Source: Dendrophyllia cribrosa (taxonomy: Eukaryota > Cnidaria > Anthozoa > Scleractinia > Dendrophylliidae). From it: a DNA stretch of 64,000 bases. The stretch lies in contig JAJLRJ010000010.1 of the NCBI GenBank assembly GCA_024195265.1, forward strand, positions 15,067,033 to 15,131,032. Direction: 5' to 3'. The translations under genes were made by a program, and so were the position numbers. The notes beneath the pieces are model-generated. The model ran no database searches. It was not told the origin of the DNA and saw only the letters and a program-made list of their open reading frames with translations. Positions 1,923 through 34,845 of this stretch are shown piece after piece. Position 1 is the stretch's first letter, and every line of letters begins with the position of its first letter.

Positions 1923-1926
1923 TTAA

Positions 1927-5844: not shown

Positions 5845-6065
5845 TTAAGTTAACTTATCTTTCAGCAACCACTACGTTTATCACAGTATCACACCAGTTG
5901 GTCTCTTACGATTCAAGGCTATTTTATCACTTTTACCGTCATATGTAAAAACCACCGCTGATGGAACATATGTGCAAATAAAAATGATAAACACGTTGAT
6001 AGTTTTAAAAAGGTGTATTTTGAAATTACCAACCAAGAAACTGGGTGTATTTTTTGTAATTAGTA

Positions 6066-7103
6066 GGCCGGTTCTCGCTAGAGCTCTTAAGTGCACTTGA
6101 GGTGCACTTGGTACGTACTTGCAGTGTGAACTCCTTTACACGTTTAAATCTCATTGTAAAATGTATCAAGGTGGTAAAAATTAATATCAGCTGAATGTAA
6201 TTAAAAAGTTAAATAATTTGCAGTAGTTCGTTTTCTAAAGGCTCCATATTTCCCTTCTTTTTATCAAAAACGTGTTTTTGAATGGCACATGCTGTTGGTT
6301 TGTACGGAATCACCCAAGTATAGCTCGCGTACTTGGAGTGTAAACGTTTTAATGACCGCACTTTTTGGTGCCTTTATGCGTAAAACAAAAGAATCCATGT
6401 GCACTTCAAAGTAAGGTCTGCCCCTTACTTGGGAGCGCACTTGACTTGACCAATGACAGTACAGCCTTGCAGCCGTGCAGCTAAAAGCACGTGGGCGCGC
6501 AACTTTGAATTCCATAGGGAACGAGCTCTCTGCGTTTTGGTTTACGATTTCGGAGTCACGGGGGACTTCAAAAAGACTCTCAAGCAGGATCTTAAGTTTT
6601 ACTTTAGCTGTTGTATTTGAAGGCATATTTCAGGCCGACTTAGGGTAAAAAATTCTACGTTGAGAAAAAAAAGGCTTTGGTCTAATTCTCAGGCTTAGCC
6701 AATCAAAAACACTACAACCATGCGCGCATTCAATACTCACGAGATACAAAAACATGTTTTTTAAGACGAGCACGAAAACTTTACCAAAAATTAACAAAGA
6801 GTGAGCATAGTATTACATCAGGCTCTGAGACGATTTTTTGCTATATTAAGTTCAAATAAAACTTGACTTGATAAGAAATTTTTTTTTACTATCGACTTAG
6901 CGTTTTATGCATATCGTACTTTAGTCCTGCAACTTTGTTTATCAAGCTGCATACCAACTTGTGCTCGCAAAAAGTTTGCATTTAAACACGCACGCTGTGC
7001 GCAATCATGCCTAAAAATCTATTGTCTCGTCTTTCCAAAGCAGACCTCTACTTGATTTCCAAGTGCACTTCAAGTGCACTTTGGTCCCTAGTGTGAACCG
7101 GCC
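6066..7103. mobile_element. 1.04-kb MITE with GGCCGGTTC termini
   Basis: The left terminus GGCCGGTTC and right terminus GAACCGGCC are inverted. Just inside, both ends carry the self-complementary motif AAGTGCACTTGAAGTGCACTT with 1-2 changes. The motif and its derivatives recur in the interior (for example near 6330 and 6410-6440). A 120-codon minus-strand reading frame lies inside (6264-6626) but has no recognisable domain. No target duplication was evident, so the superfamily is undetermined. Confidence 0.65.
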
Positions 7104-7495
7104 AAGTGTTTGTTACAAAATATTGCAACAATACTTTGTATTACAATTGTTTCCTTTTAAGATAAAAAAAAATCACTAGACAAACGTTAACGTTGGGGAG
7201 TACAAGTTCCATTGAAGGGATTATATCAATAGTAAAGACATTAAATTACAAGGACTTCAAGACAATAATGCAATGGTCAATGACGTTTAAAAATGTTATG
7301 ATTTTTAGGAAATTCCAGGTATGTACGGACGCTTCCTAACAAAAAGAAAAGGACGTTTTATTCTTTGTTTCACCCACAACTTATGTGACTATAATTTATT
7401 TCGTATTTATAATCCAATTGAGAAATGACAGTGTATCCATGGGCGTAATGTAAAACGAATTGAGAGCTCTAATTGACCCTAACTCTAAACACCAC

Positions 7496-7575
7496 AAGTT
7501 TCGTTATCTTTTTCTTTTCCTTCAAACCCTCGCCAAACCTGTTTGTAGCAGTCACTATAAATTTGTAGTTCTTGC
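7496..7575 (-). CDS. Partial fibronectin type III-like exon or relic
   Basis: Minus-strand translation gives GKNYKFIVTATNRFGEGLKE then KKKITKL, which matches the F and G strands of an FN3 domain (Y.F.V.A.N..G.G). It is close to the same region of the exon at 54901-55209 (GKKYEFVVTATNIEGESLKE). A possible acceptor (TTTTCCGCCAAG) lies directly upstream and a weak GT follows. Upstream in the same frame there is a stop, so the A-E strands are missing or on another exon. It may be a split FN3 exon of the receptor gene or a decayed duplicate. The boundaries are uncertain. Confidence 0.45.
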
Positions 7576-7699
7576 CTTGGCGGAAAATACGAAACAGAAA
7601 AACTCCAGTACTAATTCAATCGTTTATTTAATTTCCAGCAACAAAAATAACAAAGGTCGTATGGGTACTTGGTTAAGATGAATTTAATCAAAGGGCTCT

Positions 7700-9100
7700 T
7701 TAAGCCATCTCGTTAATGCGTTAGAACGTGAGGTTAAAAAAAGAAGAATCTTGATAGTGAATATGGTAAAGATGGCGTTGTAGAATCAGACATTACGTAG
7801 AAAATGCGAGGCGCAGTAGTCAACTGGATATGGTTCTTGGCAGGATAGAGAAGATTGAGAGAAAGTTTGAAAATTCGTGTTGGTGCAAGTCAATAAAAGT
7901 TATGAGTAACAAAGAATCACGAGTGTGAATGCAAATAATTTTGATGTTAGTGAAGTGAAAGTGAAAGACTTTTTCCGCCTTGCTAGCTAATTGACAATGG
8001 AAATGTGTTGTTCGGTCAATTTGCACAATGCATTTTCAGTTATTCATTGTCTATTTTCTGTTGGGATATTTGACAATAGAAAAAAAATTCTAAATCAAAT
8101 ACAATAGGTTGCCGCAATTTCAAAACAATTAAAAGCCCACAAACCTATCAAGTGATCGATAATACGTCACGTGCAGTGACTTTATATCTGATAAAAACAG
8201 TCCTATAAATTAGTATGTGGTGTTTTATTAGATATAAGGTTACTGCAGGTGACGTATTAATATTAATTATCAAAATATCAATTGACACAACAAATGGTGA
8301 CTGAATCTTTAATATTCTTTCAAGTAAGGCCCGGTTCAAACTTGAACTTCACATGTGCCGAATCTAATGGAAGGAGACCGTAACGACATGTCATTTCTCT
8401 AGAGCTGCCCGTCCCCATGCCAGGACAATTTAAGCTATGTTTAGCAGACATCGCGCCATCAGCCATTTCTTTTTCAACTCTCCAGCAGTATTCGAAAATA
8501 GAACAAAAGTCAAAGTTTATGGTATTTTGCTGTTTCTACTCTTGCATAATGAAACAGAAAGTTTTGTAGTTAGCTAAAGTATCAAGTCTGCTGTTTTATA
8601 TATTTTGACGTGAAAAATGGCGGGGAAATGGTGAATACGTGTCATTTTTCGGTCACGTCTGCTATGGGCGCACTTATATAGAAAATATTGGGTCTGGAGC
8701 GGGTAAACAGGACACCACTCCTGGCAGTCACTTTTTTAGTTTCCCTTAGATCGAAATGAGGTTCATGACAGGCCTACCGCACCGACTCCGCTATGTGGTT
8801 TTGCGGTTGCGATGCATTTATATTAGCTTTCAAAGTTTGGCTGTTATGAGTATGTCGTTAAGTGATTTACGTCTTGTATGATATGATAGGCGGCGTTTTG
8901 TAAATAGTTTTCAGGAATGGTTGGTTTTGAACGAAACTCCATTTTTCATCAGTATTTGTTTAAGGTTTTTCAGTCGTGGGTGAAATGTTGTGACAAAAGG
9001 CATTATTATCTCGTGAGTTTTTTTTCGTTTTGTTTTTTAATGCCAATTGCGTTCCGGCAAAAGTGAAATTCAGAATACCAGTGCATTTAGGAGGGTGCTA
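7700..9100. other. No gene recognised
   Basis: This is AT-rich sequence with only short unsupported reading frames. A sequence starting GGCCCGGTTCAAACTTGAAC near 8330 looks like one end of a MITE, but I could not find its partner end. Confidence 0.4.
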
Positions 9101-9230
9101 ATGGGGTTAACAGTTAACTGACAATTGCCCAAATATATAGAAAAAAAAACATAGAATGCACGATCACTACAACAAACCGCTGAGAATGGCCGGATCTGGG
9201 TTTCCAGACCTAGATCAGTATTAGTACTTG

Positions 9231-10029
9231 AAGTGAAACAAAAGAAACGGCAAACTGATCCTTACGGCAGAAAAATAGAAGCAGAAGCAAAAACAAATAA
9301 AATAAAATAAACGTGGAATATAATAGTGCCCAATATAATAGGGCAACCCCGGAGTCAACCCGCGTTCGCGTGCTGGACAAAATTCTAAACAAAATGACGA
9401 AACAAAATACACAGCATGTATCTCACTTGTCGCATTTCCCATTAGGAAAGGTAGCTCCATTTCCAACTGAGCCTTTGTAACAGCTTTTCCGTCGATCTTC
9501 TCTAATCGGAACAACTTTAAATCTAGCGCACCGAGTCCAAACTTTCCGCTTATTGTTCGATCAAATGTTTACAAGCTATGTCCATTGAATTGTGCTTTGT
9601 CATGTCAAACGGTATGCGACCTATGTGTCGTTCGAATGCCGATCCTTTGTCGTCATCTCGATAAAAACTCGGAATAACTTTGACCACGCCACTCGACACC
9701 ATCACGGAGATCAAGGTCAACGCTCTACGACCCTGTTACCTTTCGCATATAATATCGGTTAATATGTCACCTGGTCACGCAGCGAGACAGGTAAATGTCA
9801 CAAAATAGCTTTGCTGTTAGGAAAAAACTATGTTGCTTTTATTAACAACAACAATCGTTAATTTAGTATAATTAATAGAATGTCACTTAACTGTTAACTT
9901 TTCATTTATCAGTTAACTACTATATATTTGGAGTGAAACATAAACGGCAAACTGATCCTTACGGCAGAAAAATAGAAGCAGAAGCAAAAACAAATAAAAT
10001 AAAATAAAATAAAAGTGGAATATAATAGT
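9231..10029. repeat. Pair of ~98-bp direct repeats
   Basis: The segments at about 9231-9329 and 9932-10029 share nearly the same sequence (GGCAAACTGATCCTTACGGC, then AATAGAAGCAGAAGCAAAAA, then an ATAAAATAAA run and GTGGAATATAATAGTG). The spacing is about 700 bp. The AATAAAATAAAA tails differ in length. This could be a segmental duplication or the ends of an inserted element. Related GTTAACTG-rich sequence sits near both copies (about 9105 and 9890). Confidence 0.6.
9427..9548 (-). CDS. Candidate orphan exon, function unknown
   Basis: A minus-strand open stretch of about 40 codons lies between a possible acceptor (AACAATAAG) and a GTGAGA donor. It reads GKFGLGALDLKLFRLEKIDG followed by KAVTKAQLEMELPFLMGNAT. 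The composition and splice sites look protein-like, but I recognise no domain. It lies next to one of the ~98-bp direct repeats. It could be an exon of the gene spanning the window or a fragment inside an unrecognised element. Confidence 0.25.
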
Positions 10030-10081
10030 GACCACACGAGCCCTTTTCAGTGTTAGATTAAATGAGTAAGATTTCTGATTA

Positions 10082-11000
10082 CAGTAAAACCTGTATTAAG
10101 CAGACCCCAAAGTAAGTGGACACACCGTATTTTATTGGACACAAGCATCAGTGAGTTTCGATTTTTTCCTTCCCATACTCTCTGTGTACGATCAAGTGTA
10201 TCAAACAGACATCTTGACGATCCTTATTACGGTTTTGGAAGCTATCTTGACAGGTGAGAAATTATGTTTTTGTCTCAGTTTAGCATGCTCGATATGTATT
10301 GTATGACCCTTTGATGATCTTTGGGATATAAATCTCTTAAACGACGATAGTTTTTATGCTGTGTAGCCATTTATAGAATTATTGTTTCTCTATGCCTTCG
10401 TTATGCTAGTTCTCTTGGCATATTATGTTACAGCCTCTTTGGCTAACTTTTTTTGCAAGATAAGTAGTGATCGGCCGCAGCTTTTCTTATGAATATGCTA
10501 GAATTAATCAATCTCTCAGCCCGTGATTTAGTGTCTAAGTCTGCGGTGTGCAAGACTTGCGAGAAAGTGGATCTTTATCACGGATGTGATTGTCTAAGAT
10601 CAAAGTCTGAAGCTGCCGTGTCTCTATTGGAATCATGACCTCTTGCAGTTATGGTTTAGCTCCTTGTTTTATGCTGTTTTTGAGTAGTGTTTCCTGGAGC
10701 GTGAAGAACCTCCGTTGTTTCATCATGGCGTTATTGCATCCCTACATGGCTTGTACAGATATGGTGATCTGTTGTGAAAATCTCACGGATGCTAGTGAAT
10801 TCTTACGTTTTTCTTAAGCAAGACTCGAGTTTCGCATTTTAGGTGAACCTCATCAGTTGCTACCATAAGTAAATGTCTCGCGGAATAATATGAAATAATT
10901 CCGTTGTCCATGAAATGTTTGCCGCTCTCGTACTCTTGGGAAGGATCGAATGTTCCGTTTTCTCATTGGCTCGTTTGATTGAATCAATAGCATTGGTGTA
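10082..11000. mobile_element. pogo-like MITE copy running into the assembly gap
   Basis: It starts after TA with CAGTAAAACCTGTATTAAGC. Its interior resembles the complete element at 17652-18541; for example both carry TTGCAAGAT.AGTAGT, GACTTGCGAGA/AACTTGCGAGA and a TATTGGAAT.ATG segment in the same order. The right terminus was not found and is probably within or beyond the gap at 11001. The end point given is the gap edge, not a proven boundary. Confidence 0.55.
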
Positions 11001-11500
11001 NNNNNNNNNNNNNNNNNNNNNNNNNNNNNNNNNNNNNNNNNNNNNNNNNNNNNNNNNNNNNNNNNNNNNNNNNNNNNNNNNNNNNNNNNNNNNNNNNNNN
11101 NNNNNNNNNNNNNNNNNNNNNNNNNNNNNNNNNNNNNNNNNNNNNNNNNNNNNNNNNNNNNNNNNNNNNNNNNNNNNNNNNNNNNNNNNNNNNNNNNNNN
11201 NNNNNNNNNNNNNNNNNNNNNNNNNNNNNNNNNNNNNNNNNNNNNNNNNNNNNNNNNNNNNNNNNNNNNNNNNNNNNNNNNNNNNNNNNNNNNNNNNNNN
11301 NNNNNNNNNNNNNNNNNNNNNNNNNNNNNNNNNNNNNNNNNNNNNNNNNNNNNNNNNNNNNNNNNNNNNNNNNNNNNNNNNNNNNNNNNNNNNNNNNNNN
11401 NNNNNNNNNNNNNNNNNNNNNNNNNNNNNNNNNNNNNNNNNNNNNNNNNNNNNNNNNNNNNNNNNNNNNNNNNNNNNNNNNNNNNNNNNNNNNNNNNNNN
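11001..11500. other. Assembly gap (500 Ns)
   Basis: Exactly 500 undetermined bases, a conventional scaffold-gap size, so the true length is unknown. Long reading frames crossing it on either strand are artefacts. Confidence 0.99.
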
Positions 11501-13801
11501 TTGGACAGCCAACCTCACAAACGCCATCGGCAGAACATTCTCAGGGATTTCGGATACTCAGGAGTGTTAAAAACTGCTCAAATAACGGTTGTTTTCTACA
11601 ACTTCAAAAAAGAGTAAAATATACTACTGTTTCCTCAGCGGTCTTATGAGTTTATTTTAAGTTAAAGTTGTTTGTTTGTCCACCATTTTGAAAATCAAAC
11701 ACGAAAGAGGACAGCAATGAAACGACAACCTTCGTGGCTACATAGATGATAATGGTAAAAAAAATAAGTTTAACGTTCCTTGAGGGAGGGTAGACTTGTA
11801 CGGCAATTTGACCAATAAATTGGAAAAACGCATGTCATGCGCATGCGTATGTCCTTCTTGTACTACAAGAAAAGCAGCTATTTGTCTAAAGCAGACGAAA
11901 TAATAAAAAGTCCTATGTGGTCAACAATTATCCCTTGCACTTAGTCCACATGCGTTTAAACCGCGTTTGTACTTTTGATTGTTTTTATAAAGAAGGCTAC
12001 CACAAGGAAACCAGCGATTCGTCTTTCAAAAATAAATATCCTTCGTGACTAATAACGTAATTGTGGGTGGGTGGCGTGACACTTCCCTGCCGTTTTTTTT
12101 CTTACGTTGTTCCGGATCCTCATCAGGATGACTTCGGATCTCCGAGGGGTCTTCGGGATGCCTTCTGGTCTCTGAGGGGTCATCTCATTAAATTTGAAAG
12201 TCGAGAATCCTACCTAGAGGGTCAACGCGTGGGGTCCGCCTCAAACGCCATTTTGAATTTTTAATCATATCCACCATTTTGAATTAGGGACATGCGCAGT
12301 TGCAATCCTTAGGGTTATTATGCTAATAGGGACATAATTTCTAGGGCTATGACAAAAAAATAATTAGGATTAGAACAATAGGGGTCCGCGCGTGGATCCA
12401 CGCGCGTGGGTACTCGCGCGTGGATCCGCGCGCGAAAGTGGTCTAAAGGAGCGGATATGACTACTCTTACGAGAGGTTCGACTGTAATAGCTTTGCACGG
12501 CAGATATGAATTATACTGGAAACTACCCTGGACACCAGAGGTATTCTCGCGGCGAGCTTCGTGACTTGCAGGCCGATCAACGAGGGCGAAGCCGCGAGAA
12601 AAAAAAAAAGAAAAAAAAAGAAAACAATAGAGACATGACCGACACCGGAAACCGCCCAAGAAAAACCTCTGGCACCCAGGGTAACTGGAAACGCGAGTTA
12701 ACTCGTTTTATTAATACTACTGCAAGCAAGTGTCAACGATGCATATGGCTTGCCGATCGAAAGATCAATCGTCATGATATTTCGCGTGTTTGCCTCTGCT
12801 GAACAAACATACGGCTTGGTAGCCTTGAATGAACGTTCGTGCGGCAAACACCCGTTTCCTGTGGAAAAAACAGACTTAAAATGCTATTAATAGGTATTGT
12901 AGTTAATATTCAGCAAAAATAAATTTGAATTCTTTGCGGCAGACTAGACATGAATTTCGCAACCATGGGAAATAATATTTGGCTGTGTATCTTTAGCGCT
13001 GTTTAGCAATGAATTTGTTGATGTTTATCGCGTTTTCTCGCCATTCTTGGGTTTCAATTGACTTGATTTGCTTTTATTGTTCATTTGTGCGTCGATCCAT
13101 CCGGTGAAAGTGTCTTTACTACGGTTTCGCAAAGAAATGCAATGTGTAATGGTTGGCGATGCAAACGAGGAAAACGACGGACCGCAGTGGTAAGTGACCG
13201 CGACTAAGAAATAAAACCGAGGCTTCAAGGGAAGGTATGTAGATGATGCTTTATTATTTTGCCAACAATTTAAGCAGATTTAAGTCGAAAACTCTGCCGC
13301 AAGCAATTTTATATCAGGCAAAATTAATTCTGCCACGAGGGCGGACGACAGACAAACATTACGTTGAAATACGTGTAAGCTTTTTTTAAAAATTCGCACA
13401 AACGTCATTAATTGTAATGATGCTTCAAGTCCGTGAATCCTGTAAGTTCTTAGTATTCGATTTTGTAAGAATCATGTGAAATTATGAAAAACATGACAGA
13501 TCCTTAGAGTCAAATGAAAGCCCGCCAAAAAGCTAGGAATTCCCGCCAAAATGTTCACGCCATTTATGCAGATTAGTATTCTGCTCTATTTTGATTCCTG
13601 GATTGACTTATTTTACGCCTTATACAGTTGATTTTAATTCGAAAAAATCTGATAAAATCATTTACTGTGGCTGTGCAATAGATCATATATGGATATTTAG
13701 CCTTATACATTTAAATCTGACATTTAGCTTTCAATCAGCATACTTGAGCTCATGGCGTGATCAGGATATTTACAACCCATTCGTGGCGGTAGACTAACTA
13801 T
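11501..13801. other. No gene recognised; CpG-rich palindromic patch
   Basis: I see no supportable exon. Around 12385-12435 there is a dense CpG palindromic patch built from GCGCGTGGATCCACGCGCGT-like units. At about 12460-12484 the sequence TACGAGAGGTTCGACTGTA looks like the terminus of a pogo/mariner-type MITE (CAGTCGAACCTC family), but the partner end is unclear. A purine-rich A/G tract lies at 12599-12627. Confidence 0.4.
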
Positions 13802-13961
13802 AATAGAGCGTTTTCACTCACGTGACCTTCAGTCCCATGGGACTCAAATGACAAAGGCCATGGCAGCCATGTTGGTGTTCCTAACAAAAGAAGTTAATTA
13901 AAATTCTTTTGTACGGGAACACCAATATGGCGGCTATGACGTCAAGTGAAAACGCTCTATT
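13802..13961. repeat. 160-bp palindromic MITE (AATAGAGCGTTTTCAC ends)
   Basis: The left end AATAGAGCGTTTTCACTCAC and the right end GTGAAAACGCTCTATT are inverted. The interior is also palindromic (TGTTGGTGTTCC / GGAACACCAATATGG around a TTAATTAA centre), so the whole element can fold into one hairpin. This is typical of a short non-autonomous DNA transposon. Confidence 0.8.
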
Positions 13962-13974
13962 GTAACTAAGTTTG

Positions 13975-14425
13975 TAGACGAGGAAAATTTTCATAAATTA
14001 GTCTTTAAGGTCTCTACTCCATTATGTTAGCTTACAGGCGGCGCGTCCAAGCTTTTGAGGTGATAAGATCCATTTGAGACAGCAGTAAATTAACATTAAC
14101 AGTAACATTTTTCTTATAGACTAGGGAAATTTGAATAAATTAGTGTTTTAAACATAGGGGTCTCCTCTCCCTCATGTAAGCTTACAGGCGGCACGGCCAA
14201 GTTTCTGAGGTGATGAGATCCATTTGAGACAGCAGTAAATTAACACATTAACCGTAACTTTGCTTATAGACGTACTATGGAAATTTGTATAAATTAGTGT
14301 TTTGAACAAAGCCGTCTCCGCTCCTTCACGTTAGCTTACAGGCGGCACGCCCAAGTTTCTGAGGTGACGAGATCCATTTGAGACAGCAGTAAATTAACAT
14401 TAACTGTAACTTTTTCTTATAGACT
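13975..14425. repeat. Three tandem copies of a ~150-bp unit
   Basis: Landmarks recur at a spacing of 150 and 154 bp: AGCTTACAGGCGGC starts at about 14029, 14179 and 14333. Each unit ends with GATCCATTTGAGACAGCAGT then AAATTAACA and begins with TATAGAC(G/T). Copies differ by scattered substitutions and short indels. No coding potential was seen. Confidence 0.85.
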
Positions 14426-14429
14426 ATTA

Positions 14430-15189
14430 TTGAATTCATAATTCTCTGCGTACCATGTAGCCACTGTTTTCAGTAACGCAGTCACGTGACAGGATATTCT
14501 GCAAGGTTAGTTAATTAGACAGTGTCCGGTTGTTTCGCTAAAAAGCCACAACATAATCAACGAAAACATTACGGCATCTGTGACAATTTCTCGTTTAAAT
14601 GTTCGTGTGAAGTAAATTGAGTGATATAATCGATCGTAGGTGGCGAATAGAGAGAAAAGAGAAAAGTGACTTTGTGCCCAAACGGATTTTTATCGGTCGT
14701 TTATTGCAGGCAAGTGTACACCTTCAACATTTTTTTATAGAAAGCAATTAATTGGAAAATATCATGTTTTAAGCACGTAAACCGGCAGAAACCTCGCCGG
14801 TTTGTGCCATTGTTTTAAGTGATATTTATCTTTCTTATAAGCTACTGAATTGTGTTTTATTCAATTTATTCAGCGGGTTTGTTCTTAGTCGTGAAAACTT
14901 ATCAGTTGTTTAAAATCAAGATAGTGGGATCATGTTGAAGACGATTAGCGTCCTTTGGCTTATTTCTGATTTTATTTATTCGCCCCATGTCTTATAATTA
15001 CAAGTACAAGTTTTCAAAAATAACATTTGATGCTGATTGATTTGGTAAGACTGAGATCCCAGCAAGTTTTCTAGAAACTTTTCTTAGGGGATCCTCTTTT
15101 ACACTTTTATTTGAAAGGGAATAATATTATTGTGTTTTTCAGTACACTGTAGTTACGGTAGGTTTTCGTTGCACGTGAAGCTTTGCGAC
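14430..15189. other. No gene recognised
   Basis: AT-rich sequence between two repeats, with no exon or repeat structure that I could support. Confidence 0.4.
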
Positions 15190-15360
15190 ATATACCTAAT
15201 TCAATAAAGGTTGCTTTGGCAATTGGTCATTGGTAATTGGGCATTAGCATTTGGGCATACGGAACACAATGCAATGCTTTGCTTGAGTGACCGCCAAACA
15301 ATAGCTTCCCAATGCCCAATTACCAATGACCAAAGCAACCTTTATTGAATTAGGTATATA
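15190..15360. repeat. 170-bp MITE with ~30-bp TIRs
   Basis: Left end ATATACCTAATTCAATAAAG, then GTTGCTTTGG. The right end is the reverse complement (CCAAAGCAACC then TTTATTGAATTAGGTATAT). Inside, ATTGGTCATTGGTAATTGGG and its complement extend the palindrome. TA-rich flanks fit a TA-target (Tc1/mariner-type) MITE. Confidence 0.85.
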
Positions 15361-15855
15361 AATAAGTACATCCCGCGGTCTTTTATTCACGAACATTGTA
15401 CGCACGTATAACCAAGGCGCGCGGCGTGTAACATTTTCTACCCTGTTTTTTTAGTAATCATTGCATTTGATAAGTTTAAGTGCGGAGCTGAAAGATAGCT
15501 CATTAAAAAGAACATCGATGACAGCTAAACCACACGACTCAGCGTCTTTTAATGGATTATCCAAACAATAGACTTGACGCCTTGCCCACCACAAAATATT
15601 TAAAGAACGCGGCGTTAAACGGCGCTTTGGTCCTAAAATCGAGCCTGCGGCTTGTTATGATGAAGGTATTAATTAGGTATTAACACTTAGAAAACCAATT
15701 TATCCAGATTTGCTGTTTGCCTAGGTGAAAGTTGACTCGATGTTATTCCGATTTTTACACGAGGATTTGAAAGGCAATGCCTTTGTATCGAGGTTTAGTA
15801 ACGTAGAATTCCGAAAGTAACCGCAGAATTAGCAGGCCAACGGGGTCGCTATTTT

Positions 15856-21251: not shown

Positions 21252-21878
21252 AAACAAATGTAAATTAGTTGAATGAAAAGCGTTCGTTGATTCCGTGGGG
21301 TTTGAGAGTGCCGATTTGAAAGATTATTTTTTGTTCTAGGTTTTTACGGCTTTCTGTGTTACCCTGGTGTAGGGAAAGGCCGCAAATTGTCATGTGTTGT
21401 TTATAATGGTTAGTAAGATTAAAATGGCGCGCGACTGGTTTGGATGCGTCTTTGTCATTTTTTTCAACGTCTCGGAGATGTTCACGAAAACGGTCGCCCA
21501 GTCTCCTCCCTGTTTCGCCAATGTATATCTTTTCGCAAAAAGTACATGTTATGCAGTAAATAACATTTACGGAGGTGCATGTAAAACGATCAGTGATTGT
21601 AATAGATCGTTTGGGTCCTGTTATTTTGTCCGCGTTGTGAATGAAAGGACAAGTGTTACATCGTGTGCGTGTACATTTAAAAGTTCCCGGTTCATCGTCA
21701 GATTTCAGTGCCCTCTTAACTAGAAAGTTGCCTATGTTTTTGTCACGTTTGAATGGAATTAGTGGGGGTTGTGAAAAAATTCTGCCTGTTTCGGGGTCGT
21801 TTTGGAGTAATTTGAATTTTTTTTAAAATGATGCTTTTGACTGTGTTTGTTGTGTGGGTGGAAAGTGAGGGTGAATGG
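21252..21878 (-). pseudogene. Left-arm copy of the GIY-YIG endonuclease, frameshifted
   Basis: This is the reverse-complement partner of the intact frame at 21875-22507 and has the same CxxC and GIY-YIG coding. In the left arm a homopolymer (about 21815-21828, TTTTTTTT against a broken run in the right arm) has one extra base, which shifts the reading frame near the 5' side. It is therefore the decayed member of the pair. Long frames called on the plus strand here are antisense shadows. Confidence 0.7.
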
Positions 21879-22507
21879 AAGAAAACGAGAGAATTCCATT
21901 CACCCTCACTTTCCACCCACACAACAACACAGTCAAAAGCATCATTTTAAACAATTTCAAATTACTCCAAAACGACCCCGAAACTGGCAGAATTTTTTCA
22001 CAACCCCCACCAATTCCATTCAAACGTGACAAAAACATAGGCAACTTTCTAGTTACGAGCGCACTGAAATCTGACGATGAACCGGGAACTTTTAAATGCA
22101 CACGCACACGATGTAACACTTGTCCTTTCATTCACAACGCGGACAAAATAACAGGACCCAAACGATCTATTAAAATTACTGATCGTTTTACATGCACCTC
22201 CGTAAATGTTATCTACTGCATAACATGTACTTTTTGCAAAAAGATATACATTGGCGAAACAGGGAGGAGACTGGGCGACCGTTTTCGTGAACATCTCCGA
22301 GACGTTGAAAAAAATGACAAAGACGCATCCAAACCAGTCGCGCGCCATTTTAATCTTACTAACCATTCTAAACAACACATGACAATTTGCGGCCTTTCCC
22401 TACACCAGGGTAACACAGAAAGCCGTAAAAACCTAGAACAAAAAATAATCTTTCAAATCGGCACTCTCAAACCCCACGGAATCAACGAACGCTTTTCATT
22501 CAACTAA
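21875..22507 (+). CDS. GIY-YIG endonuclease domain of a Penelope-like element (5'-truncated)
   Basis: The 210-residue open frame corresponds to the C-terminal endonuclease module that follows the reverse transcriptase in Penelope-like elements. It nicks target DNA for target-primed insertion. Visible features are a Cys cluster (C75, C80, C83, then C107, C115, C118, C121), the GIY-YIG core written here as KKIYIGETGRRLGDRFREHL (residues 122-141), downstream His residues (158, 164) and a conserved Glu (about 188), and the usual end TLKPHGINERFSF. The ATG lies in the 17-bp palindrome spacer, so it is an accident of truncation and not the native start. The frame is uninterrupted, which suggests recent insertion. 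The family assignment is confident; activity is unlikely without the RT part. Confidence 0.88.
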   Translation: MEENERIPFTLTFHPHNNTVKSIILNNFKLLQNDPETGRIFSQPPPIPFKRDKNIGNFLVTSALKSDDEPGTFKCTRTRCNTCPFIHNADKITGPKRSIKITDRFTCTSVNVIYCITCTFCKKIYIGETGRRLGDRFREHLRDVEKNDKDASKPVARHFNLTNHSKQHMTICGLSLHQGNTESRKNLEQKIIFQIGTLKPHGINERFSFN

Positions 22508-24459: not shown

Positions 24460-25098
24460 TAAAGCAAATTACATTTTTCGATGGGAATTTATCTTGATAT
24501 CAATCTGTGATTGACTTTTTGTTAATGTGTTCTCGTTAGTTTTGGAGAATTGTTTTTAAACGTGTAGCTTAAATTCAGTTGTATTAATTTCTTAAATTTC
24601 ATCGAAGACACGGCTCGGCCTCGATGCGCGTTTTGCGTTTTGCGTTTTGCTTTTCAACATAAACTAATGGAGATTTGAATAAAATTTTTCGAAAGAAGAT
24701 TGTGTTGTTTATTTTTATGTGTTTGTTCATTCATTACATAGGTTGAAAAGCGATTTTATGTAAACAAAACAAGACTTAAATTTTATTATAGTTCTAACTT
24801 CACTTGCGTGGCCGTATGCAAATATGTTTGTGTATTTTTGGCAATTTTGATTTCCAAATCAGTTTCTCAGGCATTTTTTGACAAGCAACAACTGTATTTT
24901 TTAACAGTAGTCGTAATAGTTATTCTAGACGGAGAAAAAGTTGTTTTTGTGAACTATGTACTGTGCATTTAAAAACGTTTTTTTATGTACTGTGCAGACG
25001 GTCGGGTAATACTGTTTTTGAGAATTGCTAAAATTGAAAAATAGCCCGGTCGTCAATATTAATCTTAATTCTTGTGCTTCCGACCTTTCACCTATTAG
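24460..25098. other. No gene recognised
   Basis: AT-rich sequence with a short TGCGTTT triplication near 24625-24650. No exon or mobile-element boundary was found. Confidence 0.4.
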
Positions 25099-25634
25099 TT
25101 AAGGTGGCTGGTACCAGTTTCCTCGCGCGGGAGCAGGTCACTATCGTGCGTCACGCGCGAGAGACACGCGCGAAAGAGGCGCGAGATTTGAAAGACGAAA
25201 AATCAAAACAAATATGGCGGTGCGCGGCTTTTTTCGTGCTAGGTTACTTTTGTCCTGTTTTAAACGAAATTCGCGTATATCCGAGACTGTATCTACTAGT
25301 ACGACCTGAGTTAATTCCTTACATTCAAGACAAATTGCTTCCGGAGTTCAATACTCAAGTTTCAAAGGCAAAACTGCGATCGATCGTGACGAGGATTGGG
25401 AGTGCAAGGACTCGCAAAATGGTCATAAAATTGAAGAAATGACAAACCACCACAAATTATGCACTAGTCATTTGTTTCCCCCACCCCCCCACCCCCGCGA
25501 CATAGCGGGGGAATTTGCAAACAAGCGACGCTAATTTATGGTAATTCCACCACCCACCAGGGCAGAATATCTTTGCAAAACCACCACCCCCCGGGGGTTC
25601 CCGAGAACATTCCACAAACAATGGTCACAAATAA

Positions 25635-26460
25635 GTGTATCAAATCCTTTTGTTATGTATTTATTCTTAAAACAGAAAAACAACATTAAACCATATTTTT
25701 ACTTGCACATTGTTTGTGTACTTAGACTAATGGTTACACATGAATGTATCAAATCCTCTTGTTGTGTACTTTATATTCTCAAACAGAAACATTAATCCAT
25801 CACTTATTGATTGTTTGTTTACTTAACAATTACACATGAATGTATGAAATCCTCTTGTTGTGTACTTAATATTCTCAAACAGAAACATTAAACCATCATT
25901 TGCTGATGGTTTGTTTACTTCACAATTACACATGAATGTATCAAATCCTCTTGTTGTGTACTTTATACTCTCAAACAGAAACATTAAACCATCATTTGCT
26001 GATTGTTTGTTTACTTAACAATTACACATGAATGTATCAAATCCTCTTGTTGTGTACTTTATATTCTCAAACAGAAACATTAAACCATCACTTATTGATT
26101 GTTTGTTTACTTAACAATTACACATGAATGTATGAAATCCTCTTGTTGTGTACTTAATATTCTCAAACAGAAACATTAAACCATCATTTGCTGATTGTTT
26201 GTTTACTTAACAATTACACATGAATGTATCAAATCCTCTTGTTGCGTACTTAATATTCTCAAACAGAAACATTAAACCATAATTTGCTGATTGTTTGTTT
26301 ACTTCACAATTACACATGAATGTATGAAATCCTCTTGTTGTGTACTTTATACTCTCAAACAGAAACATTAAACCATCATTTGATGATTGTTTGTTTACTT
26401 AATGGTTACACATGCCAGTGAATGCTCTTGTTGTGAATTTATTCTCAAACAGAAATTAAC
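25635..26460. repeat. 96-bp minisatellite, about 8.5 copies, abutting the transposon gene's stop codon
   Basis: The landmark CACATGAATGTAT recurs at 25737, 25833, 25929, 26025, 26121, 26217 and 26313, exactly 96 bp apart, with degenerate copies at both ends. The unit includes CAAATCCTCTTGTTGTGTAC, TCTCAAACAGAAACATTAAA and TTGTTTGTTTACTTAACAAT. It ends about 10 bp from the stop codon of the transposon gene, so it occupies the position of the 3' UTR or downstream flank. Confidence 0.93.
26438..26443 (-). promoter_or_regulatory. Candidate poly(A) signal of the transposon gene
   Basis: Minus-strand AATAAA lies 27 nt past the stop codon at 26470, inside the last degenerate 96-bp unit. A second AATAAA occurs in the most distal unit near 25662. 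The spacing is reasonable but cleavage sites are not proven. Confidence 0.4.
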
Positions 26461-26469
26461 ATTTAAGTA

Positions 26470-26869
26470 TCACTTGCACAGAGGGCAGAACCACTCCTTT
26501 GTTTTGGGTTTCCCCTTAAGACCCACGCACTGAAGATGGAACCACTCTACGCTACATTCTGCTCCATCGCAGCCAACCATCAGGCCATACTCGCCTTGGT
26601 TACATAAACAGTACAAGACCTCTTCATCTGCAAATTAATAGTTTAGGGTCTTAATAAATGTTGATATTAAAGATATTTTACTATTGTATTTCTTGTTTGG
26701 TTGTCTTGAAATGTGTGGTACATACCTTGACACTCGGGACAAACCCATTCCATAGGTGGAGGATGTTTCAACCCAAGGCAGTCTAGACAGTATGTGTTGC
26801 TACATGTGGCTGAACAAGCAAGCTCTGCCTTGTTGCTGCACACAATACAAGAACCAATACTAGCATCAT
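26470..26869 (-). CDS. Exons 7 and 8 of the transposon gene: tandem PHD-type fingers
   Basis: Exon 7 (26726-26869, acceptor TTATCTTGCAG, donor GTATGT) encodes a compact Cys-rich finger: CIVC..., CSATC, YCLDC and ending WVCPEC. Exon 8 (26470-26627, acceptor ATTTGCAG, stop TGA) encodes a canonical C4HC3 PHD finger: [16 protein letters not shown], then [10 protein letters not shown] and a terminal WFCPLCK. The second resembles ING-type PHD fingers, which read methylated histone H3 tails. Both introns are short (78-98 nt on either side) and phases match exactly. Histone binding is an inference from the family; the aromatic cage was not modelled. Confidence 0.85.
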
Positions 26870-29800
26870 CTGCAAGATAAGGAAAAAATTGTTCAGACAA
26901 AGCATAAGAAGTAAAACATTTTTATACATCTGAACCAGATAAAAAATATGACATACCCGAGTTGTTCTTCTTCTTGTTCTTGTTCTTTCTAGCAATTGCT
27001 GCTTGTTTCCGTCTTTCATTTATACCACGGTAGTGATCTAGATGCCACTCCACCTCTTGGGCAGGCAGCAGAAGTTTCTCAGCCAGCTCTTCTACTGGAG
27101 TACCTTTGGGGTAATAGAAGACTGATTAACTGAATGGTCATTGATATTATTGGCTGCTAAGTATATTGTCATATTACTCACTGTTAGTTTTAGCTGCAGC
27201 CTTCAACTCTACACTAGGTGGTGACATCATTCTGTTTTCATCGTTATCAGTACACAGCAAGTCTTCGGGCTTCATAAAGCTTCCAGGCCTTTTTGGGTCA
27301 GGGACAGGAATTGGCAACCAGGTAACTGAGGGTCCACCTTCATACCATTTCATTTCACAGCTGGTTTCACCATTCTTGCATCGTGGATGAATACATTCAG
27401 GTTCCCCACAGAGAGTTAAATGGAAGATGTAATTGGATGGTACAGTCTTGCTCATGTGCCGATTACGTACATCCCAGATTTCTTGAAAATATCTGTGAAG
27501 GTCTGGATCACTGGTTCTAAGTAGCTCTTTGTCCTTCTTGTTGCCTTTGAGAAAGGTGAGTAGCTTTTGGCGGCGTGACATATCAGACTCTGCCCCCTTG
27601 AAGAGTTGAACTGGGCTTCCACAGCAGCTGGACCCTTGGACACGGTCAATGTACACCTCAGTGGCAATTTCCAAATTTTGCTTGAGCTTTGGCTTGTCTA
27701 GTCCACCAGGGCCATAATTGCTTCCACTTAGAGTTGACGGAATAAAAAGGTTGGTATGCGCTTGAGAAAGCCCACCGTTCATTAATTCCACTCGGTTTAA
27801 GTATGACCCTCCACTGTGACGGGATGTCACAAGAGTAGCAACCTTAGCTTGTTTTACATGTCGCTCTGTCCAGTAAAACTGAACTTCTACATGGCTTGGA
27901 CCTTCGTCGCTTGCTCCATCGACGCGAATGCAGTCTATAGGCCTGTTTTCCACCCATGGTTGGAGATCTGGTGAATTCTGCAGTAATTCCAAATCAGCCG
28001 CATGTTGAGCTGCATTCTTTGGATAAGTGAAGTGGGGCTTAACGACGCCCACACATGCCTGCTTGCTGGTGTCGGTTTCCATAAACAGGTAAGAAGTGGT
28101 TTGAATCACTGAAGGGTAATCATTTACAAAGTCTGTTCGTGTTGTCAGTGCTGGCCTGTTGGTGAGAGTTATGGTTTTAGAGTGCTTGTGATCATATGTT
28201 GTGTCAAGTCTAAAACCAGACTGGTCATCACGGTTTAAAAGAACTTTGTTGCTGCCCTCCTTCAGTTGAATATAATCAAGCCCTCGATACAAAGCACAAC
28301 TCCAGTGTGCATCTGGATTTATTCGAACAGAAAACCCCTTTCGAGCCCGCCTGCATGTAATCTTGGCCACATTCTGGTATCGTTTAGTGGAGAGACGCCT
28401 CTTGTTCCGGGCATAACAAAGCTGCACTATGCTTCCATAACCAATTTTCGTATTGTATTTCTCTTCAAGATGAGCTTGTATAGACTTATAGGTAACTTTT
28501 TTCCCACGTCGCCTTTCACCGTCGAAAGTAAAAAGTCCCGTTCTCCTCCACGCATCTGCTCCGACTTTTTTGCTCTCAACAAATTCTTCCATATCCTTTC
28601 CAATAGTTGGAAACTTTTTCTGTAACCTACTTGCTGATGGAGGGATTCTACGTTTAAGAATGCATGTTTTGGCTATTTCTTCAGCCATTCTTCTCTCTGC
28701 TCGCCTCCTAATGCGCAACCTTTCAGATTGTATTTTCCTTAGCGTTTCCTCCCCAAGCACATCCGTTATTTCCACTTCTTCCCAGTGTTGATCCTCATCA
28801 TTGTCAGAATCTGCTTCAATTTCTGGTTCATCTAAGGGACGCCTCCTTTGCACCTCTAAGAAAGCTTGACGTGACACTTCGACGCGCATTTCTTCGTCTA
28901 ATGTAAGATCACTGAAAGGCAAGTGGTCTGTGAACTGAAGGATGACGTGATTAAGCACTTCAGAAGTATAGTTCCTTAAGTACTGTCTGACCTCCTCAAA
29001 AAAAGTGAACCAATTTAAGTCATGTTCTCTCAACCAGCTTAAAAGAGTATCATTGGATGGTGCTGGATTTGTTAATGTTGTTGTTTTGCTGATAGCATCC
29101 GGATCATATGAACTATTCGGGTCACTGGGTGTGGTAGCTAGCTGTAATGCTGGGTTCACTATTGCTGTTCTGTTAATAGCATCGTGATCAAATGAATTAC
29201 TCGTGCCACTGGGTGTGGTAGCTACTCCAACAGTAGCTTGGGGATCCTGCTTTCTGCTGGATGTGTCAGTATTTTCACTGGGATGAGTTAGATCTGGAGG
29301 CTCAACATCTTCCACATTGCCATCATCACATACATCATCAGTTGGCATTATTTCACACGCTTCAACTTCAAAGTCAACACTGTCCTCCTCTTCTTCGTTT
29401 ATGGCATCTTCTAACCTAAGTGACCTCATCAAGGCTTTGTCTTCAATCTCTGCAAGCTCAATAATTGATTGTCTTATTTCTGCTGCTTCTTGAAGAGCCA
29501 TGCGCACCTTTTTACTTACATCTTTGTATGACGCAATTCCATAAACTTTCCGCGCCTGTTTTGAGGTAAGACCAGCTCCCTCACACGCAGCAAACTTAAG
29601 CAGTGTGCGGTCCTTATCACTGGATGCTAGTTTACACAGGGCTGTCAAAGTGGATTTATCTAAACCTTGAACCTGTTCAGGGACAATCAGCTTGTTAATC
29701 CAGTGCACCAGTCTCTTGTAATCAACAGAAGGGCAGTACTCAGTTACATGCAGTCGAGAACCCAAGTACCTTTCAAGTGCAAATATTGCAACTGGTAGCT

Positions 29801-32391
29801 GAAGCAGTCTCCTAACAGCTTTGTCTGATTTGTATGTCTTACCAGGAAAAAATTTGTGGTACAGGTCTGAAACGTTGACAATTCCTTTGTCCTTAATGTA
29901 ATTTGCAATTTCAATCAAAATGCTACATTCTTTGCAACTAACAGAATGATGCTGCTGGCAATGTCTTCTTCTAAAACTGACAAATTCAACGAGAGTAAAA
30001 CTGTTAAGTTTTGATATGTACAATGAGTTTTCAACTTGACATGAGGCCACGTTCCCCAATGTTGACCTTGTTAAAGACAAGAATGTTGCGTATTTGCCAG
30101 CAGCGTATGGGATAAAAAAGAGTTATCGCAGGTTTGGTTAGGTTGAAGGCCATCAGCAGGGTCTGCTTGTTTGGTGTCTGAACTGTTTGATGCTATCTTG
30201 GCAACTTTAGGATCTAGTACAGTAGGTAGTTGGCCATCAACATGCTCTGGCGTCTTACTGGAAACTTGGGGAAGGAAACTTGTGATTTTTGCATGACTTG
30301 TGTTCAAGGATCTTGTCTTTGCATTTTGCTTTTCACATTTTCTTCTCTTGGTTTGAAGCATGGTGAGTTCTTCCTCTAGTTTTCTTTTTCTTGCCCTCAG
30401 TTGCGAAATCTGTTCTGTTAAGGTCGCAGCCTGGCCAAACTGTTTCACACTGATATGTTTTTCGCGCTGCCTGGTCAGAAGTCCCATTTGTGTGTCAGAA
30501 TCAGTTAAGTCTTCTTGAATCTCTTGCAATCTTTTTACTTTAAGCGAGTCACTAAGATACCCTCTCTTTGGTGCTCCAGTACTACTCTCTCCAAATTGTT
30601 TTGATCTGCTTGTCTTTTTCTTATAATTGTAGCCACTATTGTGCAACATCTTGCGCGCCAATTCACATAGTTTTTGTTTATCATTCACTACGCTTGGGTC
30701 ATCTAAAGCTAGTTTAAATGCTGCTTTGTTGAGTTCTGTATAGTAACTGAACATCTTATGACTAGGGTCAATCTTTGAGGTGTCATATATCTTACTCTTC
30801 TCTTGAATTTCCTTCTCATCAATCTTAACTGTAACTGTGTTCTGCTCAACAGGCATAACCTAGAAAGTAGACCAATTTCTTATTTCAGCAACATCGAAGT
30901 TATAGTAATTTGGGGAGGGGTGGCGAGGAGCATCGCCATTTGCGGTCATTTCCATATTTGGTCAAAATATCTATACTATGGCCCACAGACTTTGACCACA
31001 CTCTTCTGTCTACAATGCATCTCCATAATGACTAATTCGTTGCATGCGCACATCAATGAGCTAAAAAAATGTTTTGAAGAGCAACTTGCCTGCAACTCAG
31101 GGCCAATCGTTAAACTGCCATTGTTCACAAGAATTGTAGATTGGTGGGATCTTGAAATAGTACTTGGAGGAGTACTCACAGCCTCAGATGACCTGGATTC
31201 AGGTAAACTGGATGACGAATTTCTGGTAAGCTGTTAAAAAATGGTTAAGATAAAGATGAGCATTCAATAGAAGTCTGATCTTAATAAGAAAACTTTCACT
31301 TTTACTTAGTTTTCAGAATTTGAGCAACCAGGATACATCCTGGTTGCTAAAAAAAACATAGGAAAGGAAATACAAACAACGAAAAAGGCAACCCTTTTTT
31401 AAATGTAGATGTGAAATTCAAAACAAAAATATTCCATTGCCACAGAGAGATTTTGGGTTGCGTAAACACATAAAAACCTTCATACAAATGACAAACACTA
31501 TATTTGTCACTTGAAAATTCCAGAAGGAATGGGGGATCCTTTATCAAATTCCCCTCATGGTATGGGTATGGTTTATTTTTGAACAACCAGAGACAGAGTT
31601 GATACACTAGAACACAGAACCTGTCACACCAAACAAGAAACAAGTGTACATCATCATGGGAGTTCTGTGTAATTTCCATATATAATAAAAATGCGCAAAA
31701 CTGCAGAATGGCCCATGAAACATAATCAGCATTTTAAAAATGATATTATGACAAACCTCAAATACAGTTCTTAATAATAAGTATGTACTGTACCTTGATA
31801 TGTTTTAAAATAAGCAGAATGTCTCCCACAGCAGTTATTCCAATTTCACGGATGCTCTCTTTGGTGATATCATTAAGCACATCCTCTGTTATGCTTAAGA
31901 AGAAATTAAAAAGAAAATACATCAGAAAACCCTTGACCTCAAGAAGGCAAGAAATATTAAATCATTCTGAGGTAGGAGGAGGTCACAAAAAATAGAAAGA
32001 AAATTTAACTAGGCATTATTTGTAAACATGAGGTTCTAGATCTGGGCTAGGCTGAGAAGATATATTAAACGATTAATTCTTCCAAAAAGTGTATTTGTGA
32101 ATTGTTGCATTGTGTACTTACCGATTATCAACGAAAAGCTTAGCATAGTCCTCAGCTCTGTCCTCGAGGCCAGCCTTTGAAAAAAAAACCTTCCATCTAG
32201 AATGATGAAAGTGAAATCACTTATTAAACGGAATACGCGCAACAACAAAGCCTAAATATAGTGTCTGGATAAAAGGTCAAAGTGTTTTCTTTCAATTGCC
32301 ATCATACATATCAATGGATGCATTCATTTACATAAGAATTGACAAGGATTGTTTACACTTACTTCGTCACGCTTTCCGCTCTGTTCGCCAT
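26470..32391 (-). CDS. SAM / coiled-coil / putative DDE transposase / double-PHD protein, eight exons, one frameshift
   Basis: Exons on the minus strand in order: 32391-32363, 32196-32122, 31893-31794, 31230-31090, 30859-27182, 27103-26957, 26869-26726, 26627-26470. Every junction keeps phase; intron 4 uses a GC donor (CAG/GCAAGT). The start ATG sits in AACATGGCGAACAG. Total about 1,490 codons. Residues 11-68 form a SAM domain; about 220-291 are a Lys/Glu/Gln-rich coiled coil. The large exon holds a His/Cys motif (RRRHCQQHH...CKEC), an acidic linker, then a probable RNase H-fold core with candidate catalytic acids in NRDDQSGF (about 994), [10 protein letters not shown] (about 1096) and YLNRVEL (about 1140), followed by [11 protein letters not shown]. 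Two PHD fingers end the protein. It is the only gene of the 7.19-kb TIR element, so transposase function is inferred from context plus motifs. One base is missing in a homopolymer at 30114-30119. Confidence 0.8.
27182..30859 (-). CDS. Exon 5: coiled coil and catalytic core, split by a single-base deletion
   Basis: This 3.68-kb exon contains two overlapping frames (30071-30857 and 27174-30115). The downstream frame has no ATG at its 5' end. The upstream frame reads ...TCDNSF and the downstream one continues [20 protein letters not shown]. One additional T in the six-T run (plus-strand A at 30114-30119) would join them and also make the total exon length fit the phases on both sides (3,679 nt, phase 0 to 1). 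The break is either a homopolymer sequencing error or a recent inactivating deletion. The rest of the exon is open over 960 codons, which argues for recent activity. Confidence 0.85.
30863..31089 (-). other. GC-AG intron of the transposon gene
   Basis: The intron between exons 4 and 5 starts with GCAAGT after CAG and ends CTTTCTAG. Both flanking exons are phase 0. GC-AG introns are a minor class (known at about 1 percent in animals). The intron start is at 31089 and the end at 30860 on the minus strand. Confidence 0.65.
31794..32391 (-). CDS. Exons 1-3 of the transposon gene: SAM domain
   Basis: Exon 1 (32363-32391) encodes MANRAESVT. Exon 2 (32122-32196) encodes [20 protein letters not shown] and then FVDNR. 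Exon 3 (31794-31893) encodes [20 protein letters not shown] and then [13 protein letters not shown]. The pattern W..FF..AGL....YA..F..NRI....L.D...E...E.GI...GD...IL.H.K is the SAM fold as found in the C19orf47-like group. SAM domains mediate homo- or hetero-oligomerisation. None of the three exons is long enough to be found by ORF scanning; they rest on splice sites (GTAAGT, GTAAGT, GTACAG donors) and phase agreement. Confidence 0.78.
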
Positions 32392-32652
32392 GTTGGATCA
32401 CTGCTTCTAGGAATGCATCCAGAATCCTTTGCACGCAGTCTCCTCGTGAGCGCTTTGTTTTCGAAAAATTCCCCGTCATTTACCCCGGGGTTCCCCGGGG
32501 AAATTTAAGGTCGAGCAAATTTGAGGTAAAGTCCCTGGGGGTCTGGGCATAAAATCATCGCAAACCTCCAGTAATTCCACCGCTATTGCCCGACAAAGTC
32601 CCCGCATGTCGCGGGGGTGGGGGGGCGGGGGAAACAAATGACTAGTGCATTA

Positions 32653-34845
32653 TCTCGCTTGATCGGGTCTTGGCCACATCCTATGGTTCATATTTTGTGT
32701 GCTCAACGGCCACTGCGTATGCAGGCGAGAGAGACTAGGATAAACAAGACTACGCTTTTTAAAAAGTAAGACACAAACAGCCCAACTAAAAATCGCAAAC
32801 CGAGAATGAACTGAACCTATGAATCATCGAACAACAAGATGACCGACAACCGAACGCAAAAACCAGCAAGCGAAAGAGAGAAGGACTGAACGAATCCTTT
32901 ATGTTAGACGAAAAAGAATTGTAGCAAAGAAAGAAACCTTAAAATGCGACATATGCTATCATTTAAATTAAAACAGTAGAGCATTAGATTTTGACCCTAA
33001 ATGTTTTAATACCTGTTGTAAACTTTTATTTATAAAATTTTTTGGACTAATGGGCGAGGTTATTCGTTTGTGTCACACCGAAAAAACACCAAAAAGTCCA
33101 ACTTAAAAATAAAATTGAAGAATTAAAACTTAACGGGACGAACAGAAGACAGCAAAAACTCGAACGAAAAACGGAACAGTTTGGTGACAAATTTGGATTT
33201 TGAAATAATCAGTTGTACCTAAACATTAAAATTCATAAACATGTACTTTAGTTTAGTGAGCTCACTAAAAACTTATTAATAGACAACACAGATTGATAAT
33301 GTGGAAAATTTTATCTTTTTAGAAGGTCTGTCATTCTCGTCAGGGGCACAGTGAACAGACCCGGTAGAGGGATTAATTTATAGCAAAACACTCCCGACGT
33401 AATAAATATGCGTACGAGAGACAGTTCAACTTACAATGAAATTGAAGATTTATTTGCAAATAAATTCGGTAAATTAATTCTCTACCGCACGTTTCAAACC
33501 GTGGTACCACAGCTGGCCCTACGTGCCTGAGCTGATTGATATCAATCTATATAGTTTATTTATATGGTAAAACTGGTCTTTTACCTCAGAGCGTCCAGCA
33601 TTGAAGATGATTTGAGCTTTGATGCCGTGATTCAGTGGGCAAAAAAGTGCAGACATGAATTGTCAAACAGAAACTACAAGCCATGTTTTCGATTGCAGAT
33701 GCTCACAATATCGGCTGAAGATTAAAAGATGCTGAGCCATCCGTAAATAACATTCATTTTCATTCACTAAACGGCCAAACGCGGAGAAAAAAAAACATTG
33801 AGTCGTTGTTTTTTAAAAAGTAAATGACACGAACAGCCTATAAACTAAAAATCGCAAACTGAGAATGAACGAACGGAAAGATATCTATCCGAAGAGGATA
33901 TTGGCCGCCATCGTTAAACACTGCGACGAAAACAACCGTGAAGAATAAGGACAAATCCCGAGAAAATCTCACATAAAGAAGCTCAACATTTAAGTCATTT
34001 TACAATTTAGAAGTATCGCAATGTTTTCATTCTGAAGCACCGACCGGCACGTGTTTTCGCTTGATGCTATTTGACAAAGACATAGCTTATCTAGCCAGAA
34101 GTTGTGATAAAATCCCCAAAGGTGAGCCCAGAAAGCTGTCTTTAACGGCCACTAAATGATCTTCTAAGCAGTAAACAACTTCAAACACCAGATCGGCGGC
34201 AAATCGCGTACATTGTATCCTAAACTGACTCCGACACTCTCCAAACAGTAGCTGCCCACGCGAGCACACGCAACAGTCAGCGGTAGTCAGAACAGATCAT
34301 GAGCAACTGTTGATCTTATAGAATCCGGATTTTTTGAATGCGCGAAGACGCGCGTGGGAATTGCTAAACTCACGAAGGCTTTTACATAAAAACAAGTCCG
34401 GTGACTCCCACTTTTTATTGTTTCAATGTAATATAATTATTGAGAGGAAACGTCAGACAAAAAATTAAAAAATTCTACGGAAGGAAATTTGCACTGCGTG
34501 AAAATTGTCTTTATCCAAATTTACAAAAATTCCGCTCCGTAGAATTTTTTTAAAATCGTTGTGCATTTTCCTTTTCAAATGCCAAAAGCTATTACTAAAA
34601 AAAAACAGGGGGTCACCAGGTTAATTTTGTAACTATTAGTGCTACAAGCCAAAAAATAGGTCTGAATAATCCTTTGGAAACGTTGCCATGGAAACCGCTA
34701 ATGACGAAATAACACTTACATTTGGTCAACTATATATTATATATTTCAACCCTACGAAAGTGTTACAGTGACCTTGATCTGTCTTTTTGTTCTGTTCCTT
34801 CAAAGTTACAAACCGTCAAAAAGCTGAAAACTGGTACCAGCCACC
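32653..34845. other. Right part of the outer TTAA element, no gene seen
   Basis: It holds two diverged direct repeats of about 70 bp (about 32745-32810 and 33795-33870) sharing AAAAAGTAA.ACA, AACTAAAAATCGCAAAC and GAGAATGAAC. A short inverted pair AAAAAATTCTACGGA / TCCGTAGAATTTTTTT lies at about 34468-34552. No exon was supportable. Confidence 0.5.

Follow-up and report, generated by a model that had tools for sequence, protein, structure and literature searches.

A recently mobile transposon of Dendrophyllia cribrosa in which a putative programmed −1 frameshift would join SAM, predicted DDE transposase and PHD modules

The window considered here is a stretch of 64,000 nucleotides from the scleractinian Dendrophyllia cribrosa (assembly GCA_024195265.1, contig JAJLRJ010000010.1, forward-strand positions 15,067,033 to 15,131,032), and the subject of this analysis is a transposon of 7,190 bp lying at positions 25460–32649 of that window, whose limits are set by 12 genomic copies, 8 of them exactly 7,190 bp long. 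The element is enclosed by a TTA duplication (left 25457–25459, right 32650–32652, both placed from the sequence and from comparison of the flanks of the copies), and its borders read TTA followed by TGCACTAG on the left and CTAGTGCA followed by TTA on the right. The left terminal inverted repeat (TIR) covers 25460–25503 on the plus strand (5'-TGCACTAGTCATTTG) and the right one 32606–32649 on the minus strand; the inverted arms as a whole (25456–25503 and 32606–32653) are 48 nt long and 96% complementary, and the sole match of each TIR within the window is its partner. A first-pass annotation, made from the sequence alone, had described a complete-looking transposon with inverted ends of about 46 bp, and both the ends and the completeness are borne out by these arms and by the copies described below. 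Inside the left end, the subterminal region at 25638–26510 (plus strand) consists of tandem repeats forming seven registered 96-bp units, which the fetched copies also carry, as judged by identity.

The element carries one gene on the minus strand, in which eight exons are joined by seven GT–AG introns with all phases agreeing. Exon 1 (32363–32391) bears the start codon and, together with exons 2 (32122–32196) and 3 (31794–31893), encodes a SAM domain, followed by a linker in exon 4 (31180–31230). The large exon 5 (27182–30859) contains two open reading frames (ORFs), ORF A (30071–30859) and ORF B (27174–30122 as an open frame), with an in-frame slippery heptamer, U UUU UUA, at 30113–30119 on the minus strand as the point of a one-base back-step, and a predicted RNase H-fold DDE core at 27751–28247 on the same strand, corresponding to approximately residues 626–791 of ORF B. 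A basic linker in exon 6 (26957–27103) leads to an NSD-like PHD finger (PHD1) in exon 7 (26726–26869) and an ING-like PHD finger (PHD2) with the stop codon in exon 8 (26470–26627). The earlier description of a single eight-exon gene with agreeing splice phases thus stands as regards the introns, but it lacked the −1 frame change inside exon 5. The third intron also holds a near-perfect 16-bp palindrome with a loop of 2 nt (31319–31352).

The first 241 bp of the element were used as a query against the host genome (627 Mb in 22 contigs) and recur at 12 places, the window included, at approximately 100% identity, and the remaining 11 copies, which provide the matching ends that the first-pass annotation had asked for, were retrieved and compared with the window copy. 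The seven other full-length copies differ from it at 0, 0, 0, 0, 1, 1, and 2 positions, and the copies of other lengths comprise one with a 684-bp loss, one with a 4.9-kb insertion, and two with an insertion of about 8 kb. Equal 3-bp flanks occur in 11 of the 12 copies, TTA in seven and TAA in four, so that the duplication is TWA overall, of which the previously reported TTA is the form at the window. The single copy with unequal flanks (L009, G000 C22) is bordered by TTA at its left end and by TAA at its right end, which may have arisen by point mutation or through recombination with another copy. Chance TIRs were considered and are ruled out by the equal flanks. Related loci, recovered through ORF B as described below, were read at their right ends, so that their 3-bp sequence is known on one side: in six copies of the L036 family GTGCA is followed by TAA, TTA, TAA, TAA, TAA, and TTA, and at L042 GGTGCA is followed by TAA. 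The element is recently mobile, and with twelve copies so nearly identical it is a candidate functional element; that it is a transposon is practically certain.

The loaded copies allow some further observations. The nested sequences of about 8 kb (L017/L018 and L019/L020) have 9 bp common to both edges (element positions 6346–6354), and the nested 4.9 kb (L011/L012) has 8 bp common to both edges (element positions 1132–1139). The two 8-kb-loaded copies, although lying 314 kb apart, match each other from 297 to 15527 of the 15826 positions retrieved, with the element starting at 301, that is, over the element and hardly beyond it, and for this reason the 15-kb loaded element itself seems to have moved.

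The identification of the core as a transposase rests on the conservation of acids at the catalytic places of ORF B (D632/D633, D735, and E779) among relatives, of which one search returned 396 proteins, and on the predicted fold, which shows the RNase H order of elements and has a spacing of 43 residues from the second D to the E. Among the fold matches listed, the nearest solved structures are Mos1, SETMAR, and Sleeping Beauty, and families missing from such lists were not counted as excluded. It has to be noted that Foldseek returned nothing for the core at E ≤ 0.001 (best 4.6e-3), which speaks against the assignment. The core is nevertheless predicted to be an RNase H-fold DDE transposase, in agreement with the three acidic motifs and the RNase H-like structure that the first-pass annotation had proposed. 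That annotation had also been unable to place the protein in a named superfamily, and the same holds for the library models: no Pfam transposase model matched the window ORF B (E ≤ 1) or 44 relatives (E ≤ 0.01), and no transposase stood among 25 of the 55 Pfam families shown for relatives at E ≤ 10 or among the 20 NCBIfam families at E ≤ 10. The family is large, and yet its core is unnamed by the models scanned. The phage, viral-contig, and prokaryote-contig collections yielded no matching relative.

The domains on either side of the core, which had likewise been correctly recognized, are supported by Pfam, with SAM_4 over exons 1–3 (E 1.7e-15) and the two fingers matching PHD-1st_NSD (E 1.5e-6) and PHD (E 3e-6); the evidence that the SAM domain belongs to the gene comes from the window family. 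PHD2 resembles ING1 (E 5e-19) and ING4 (E 7e-19) and keeps the motifs YCLCNQ, YG.M.GCD, and EWFH, which we take to be those holding the cage for trimethylated lysine 4 of histone H3 (H3K4me3) in ING proteins, and PHD2 probably reads H3K4me3. A loose PHD pattern occurs in the C-terminal half of 48 of 124 relatives and each of the stricter patterns, which end in WFH, in 8; many of the relative records are single open frames and may miss the last exons. At the DNA level, four loci were scanned, with two patterns found at L035, one at L042, and none at L036 and L044, the last two speaking against the model proposed below. Two weaker resemblances were also seen. ORF A shows similarity to NAB conserved region 2 (Pfam NCD2, E 3.1e-5, slightly below the curated cut-off), and a precomputed NCD2 domain is recorded in 9 of its 17 homologues; a weak homeodomain score appears in 9 of 44 ORF B relatives (alignment A3; best 6e-4 in a search at E ≤ 10), and the homeodomain-like stretch is perhaps the basic exon 6 region between the core and the PHD fingers.

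Within exon 5, ORF B is shifted by −1 relative to ORF A and overlaps it by 52 nt, and the in-frame T TTT TTA (30119–30113) lies within this overlap, where exactly a −1 step is required. ORF A has no other canonical in-frame heptamer. Since ORF B has 3 such heptamers in its 983 codons, a chance occurrence in the 17-codon overlap is estimated by us at about one time in twenty. Read in frame 0, the transcript gives a product of 347 residues with SAM and coiled-coil modules, while a −1 step at the heptamer gives one of 1,460 residues, which runs through all later exons to a single stop and is a SAM–transposase–PHD fusion; the −1 frame change thus implies two products from one transcript.

These features would also be explained if an unrecognized intron joined ORF A to ORF B or if ORF B started independently, and the gene does have other introns, an AG lies near residue 19 of ORF B, and GTG or TTG starts are possible. 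An independent start is opposed by the first ATG of ORF B, which does not come before codon 208. As to an intron, a stop in the ORF B frame 3 nt ahead of the slip codon, together with homology from residue ~10–14 onward, leaves almost no room for an acceptor, and the constant frame relation across the seven lineages described next is not something that an intron would impose. Both versions are consequently regarded as very improbable.

The ORF B search of the host genome returned 62 matches, and the junction was readable in eight lineages, with loci L044, L046, L047, and L049–L052 left out of the comparison. Seven of the eight share an in-frame U UUU at the junction and a −1 relation of ORF B to ORF A, which terminates 0–14 codons past the U UUU. 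The codon after U UUU is UUA in the window family, UUG in L042 with L043, UGU in L036 with L037–L041, UAG in L035, CUC in L048, UAA in L045, and CUU in L056, where the reading is limited by the end of the retrieved stretch. Reading in the −1 frame meets a stop after 29 codons in L035 and after 60 in L045, which indicates that these copies are decayed. At the protein level, nine of the 17 homologues of ORF A reach the slip site (P0125, P0127, P0129, P0130, P0134–P0137, and P0139), and all nine read F-L there and stop 1–13 residues later; P0126, P0131–P0133, and P0138 end before the site, and P0128, P0140, and P0141 change frame before it. A synonymous to non-synonymous count over ORF B in six copies of the L036 family gave 20 to 9 versus 3.63 to 1 for random change, which is a weak signal.

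A hairpin just downstream of the site is found in five of the seven lineages, with energies of −20.7 to −28.4 kcal/mol and z of −2.3 to −5.0, whereas 3 of 127 other TTTT sites, taken from five of these sequences, reach −20 kcal/mol or below (Fisher P 3e-6, the sites not being independent). For L048 the site was set two bases early in the structure computation, and its frame was rechecked. Half of the ten pairs between the stem arms change type yet still pair, and pair 7 is A-U, U-A, G-U, C-G, and A-U across the five lineages, a pattern that favours a kept stem without proving it. Rfam returned no matches in L035, L036, L045, L048, and L056.

Several observations weigh against a conserved programmed frameshift. 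No stable RNA structure follows the window slip site (z +0.5, and +1.0 to +2.1 in a second computation) or that of L042 (z +1.9), the heptamer is non-canonical from UUU onward at four of the seven sites, and the stem arms were brought into alignment manually once their pairing had been noticed, MAFFT having misplaced the L045 arm. In the eighth lineage, L055, the T run is shorter and the frame relation differs, and the ORF B match beside it carries stops; in the protein P0016, the ORF A and ORF B parts lie in one frame. Runs of T are also places of single-base loss, and this is the basis of an alternative in which one base was simply lost from the T run and the resulting frame change became fixed in the founder of the burst, leaving the copies unable to make transposase and dependent on enzyme supplied from elsewhere. 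The descent of all 12 copies from one recent founder would suit such a loss, as would the missing hairpin in the window family. A single loss does not, however, account for a −1 relation that recurs at one position in seven of eight lineages or for the end of ORF A being kept in all nine homologues that reach it, and the proteins P0001, P0002, P0004, and P0006 (97–99% identity) likewise begin after the site. This alternative is therefore considered unlikely, and conserved programmed −1 frameshifting likely, although for the window family the case appears to lie in the conservation among relatives more than in its own site.

Taken as a whole, the best explanation, to which we assign a probability of roughly 0.75, is a DDE transposon with a −1 frameshift, a SAM partner, and PHD-biased insertion. 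In the model proposed here, one spliced mRNA would be read two ways. Most ribosomes would terminate 13 codons past U UUU UUA and release a 347-residue SAM and coiled-coil protein A, and a minority would slip back one base and produce a 1,460-residue A–B fusion, which additionally contains the DDE core and both PHD fingers. The core would cut at the TGCAC ends and insert at TWA. Protein A probably regulates or co-assembles with A–B, since SAM and the coiled coil are oligomerizing modules; in bacterial IS3-type elements OrfA works with OrfAB, and protein A may act by analogy. The ING-like PHD2, in turn, probably reads H3K4me3 and could bias insertion to active chromatin. The ING-like character of PHD2 adds weight to the idea of chromatin-directed insertion, which the first-pass annotation had raised, and such steering is judged here to be an even question.

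Outside the element, an ORF with a GIY-YIG domain (21875–22507, plus strand; Pfam 6.5e-5) lies approximately 2.9 kb from its left end and is perhaps the end of a Penelope-like element, and a 134-codon open frame at 25038–25442 (plus strand), which has no Pfam match, ends 18 bp before the transposon.

In the literature, as judged from titles and with subscription journals mostly outside the search, no account was recognized of this element, of frameshifting in a eukaryotic DNA transposon, or of a SAM-domain transposase. The element may be described as a cut-and-paste transposon variant, possibly of a new superfamily, as judged against the Pfam and NCBIfam models. CACTA (EnSpm) was rejected, the ends beginning with TGCACTAG and not with CACTA, as set by the duplications of 11 copies. 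The Tc1/mariner group (IS630–Tc1–mariner, with Mos1, SETMAR, and Sleeping Beauty) provides the nearest solved folds of the core but differs in its TA duplication, as compared with the 3-bp TWA found here, and the present element departs from it also in its 43-residue spacing, in its long multi-domain, multi-exon gene, and in the lack of any match of ORF B and its relatives to the Pfam transposase models of that group. PIF/Harbinger elements share the TWA duplication, which is typical of them, but neither the window ORF B nor its scanned relatives match their Pfam transposase model, and the partner is a SAM/coiled-coil protein in place of their Myb-like one. Zator is the named superfamily least readily excluded: like the present element, it has 3-bp duplications, and it is kin to the Tc1/mariner group, according to passages among PMC7386202, PMC8533490, PMC10294476, and PMC10045372; the comparison is by description, and on the other side stands the core without a Pfam or NCBIfam transposase match. 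An aberrant member of a named superfamily such as Zator or PIF/Harbinger, as these shared duplications and the Tc1/mariner-like folds would allow and the scans of ORF B and its relatives oppose, is a minority possibility, which concerns the name and is compatible with the mechanism above. Slightly less than an even chance is given to an undescribed animal superfamily that would make its transposase solely by programmed −1 frameshifting, with a SAM-polymer protein in excess and a SAM–DDE–PHD fusion reading H3K4me3 to find open chromatin.

The RAG1–RAG2 system (Transib) also has a PHD finger that serves a transposase system, there in the separate protein RAG2, as described in passages of PMC4411706, unlike the fingers found here, which are fused to a transposase with a different core. 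The present element would be a second case beside RAG2, if the reading is correct, and histone-guided insertion could then be tested within a single protein by way of its fused ING-like finger. The −1 slip itself is a known means of control in retroviruses and in bacterial jumping genes, where it yields the gag-pol and OrfAB fusions. Like the retroviral gag-pol and the IS3-type OrfA/OrfAB arrangements, the present gene has an upstream protein and a −1 fusion that carries an RNase H-fold enzyme; it differs in belonging to an animal DNA transposon, in containing introns and a SAM domain, and in having a frameshift inferred from sequence. If true, animal DNA transposons would set the dose of their transposase by translation, as retroviruses set that of gag-pol, and the element would parallel, in animals, the OrfA/OrfAB arrangement of bacteria.

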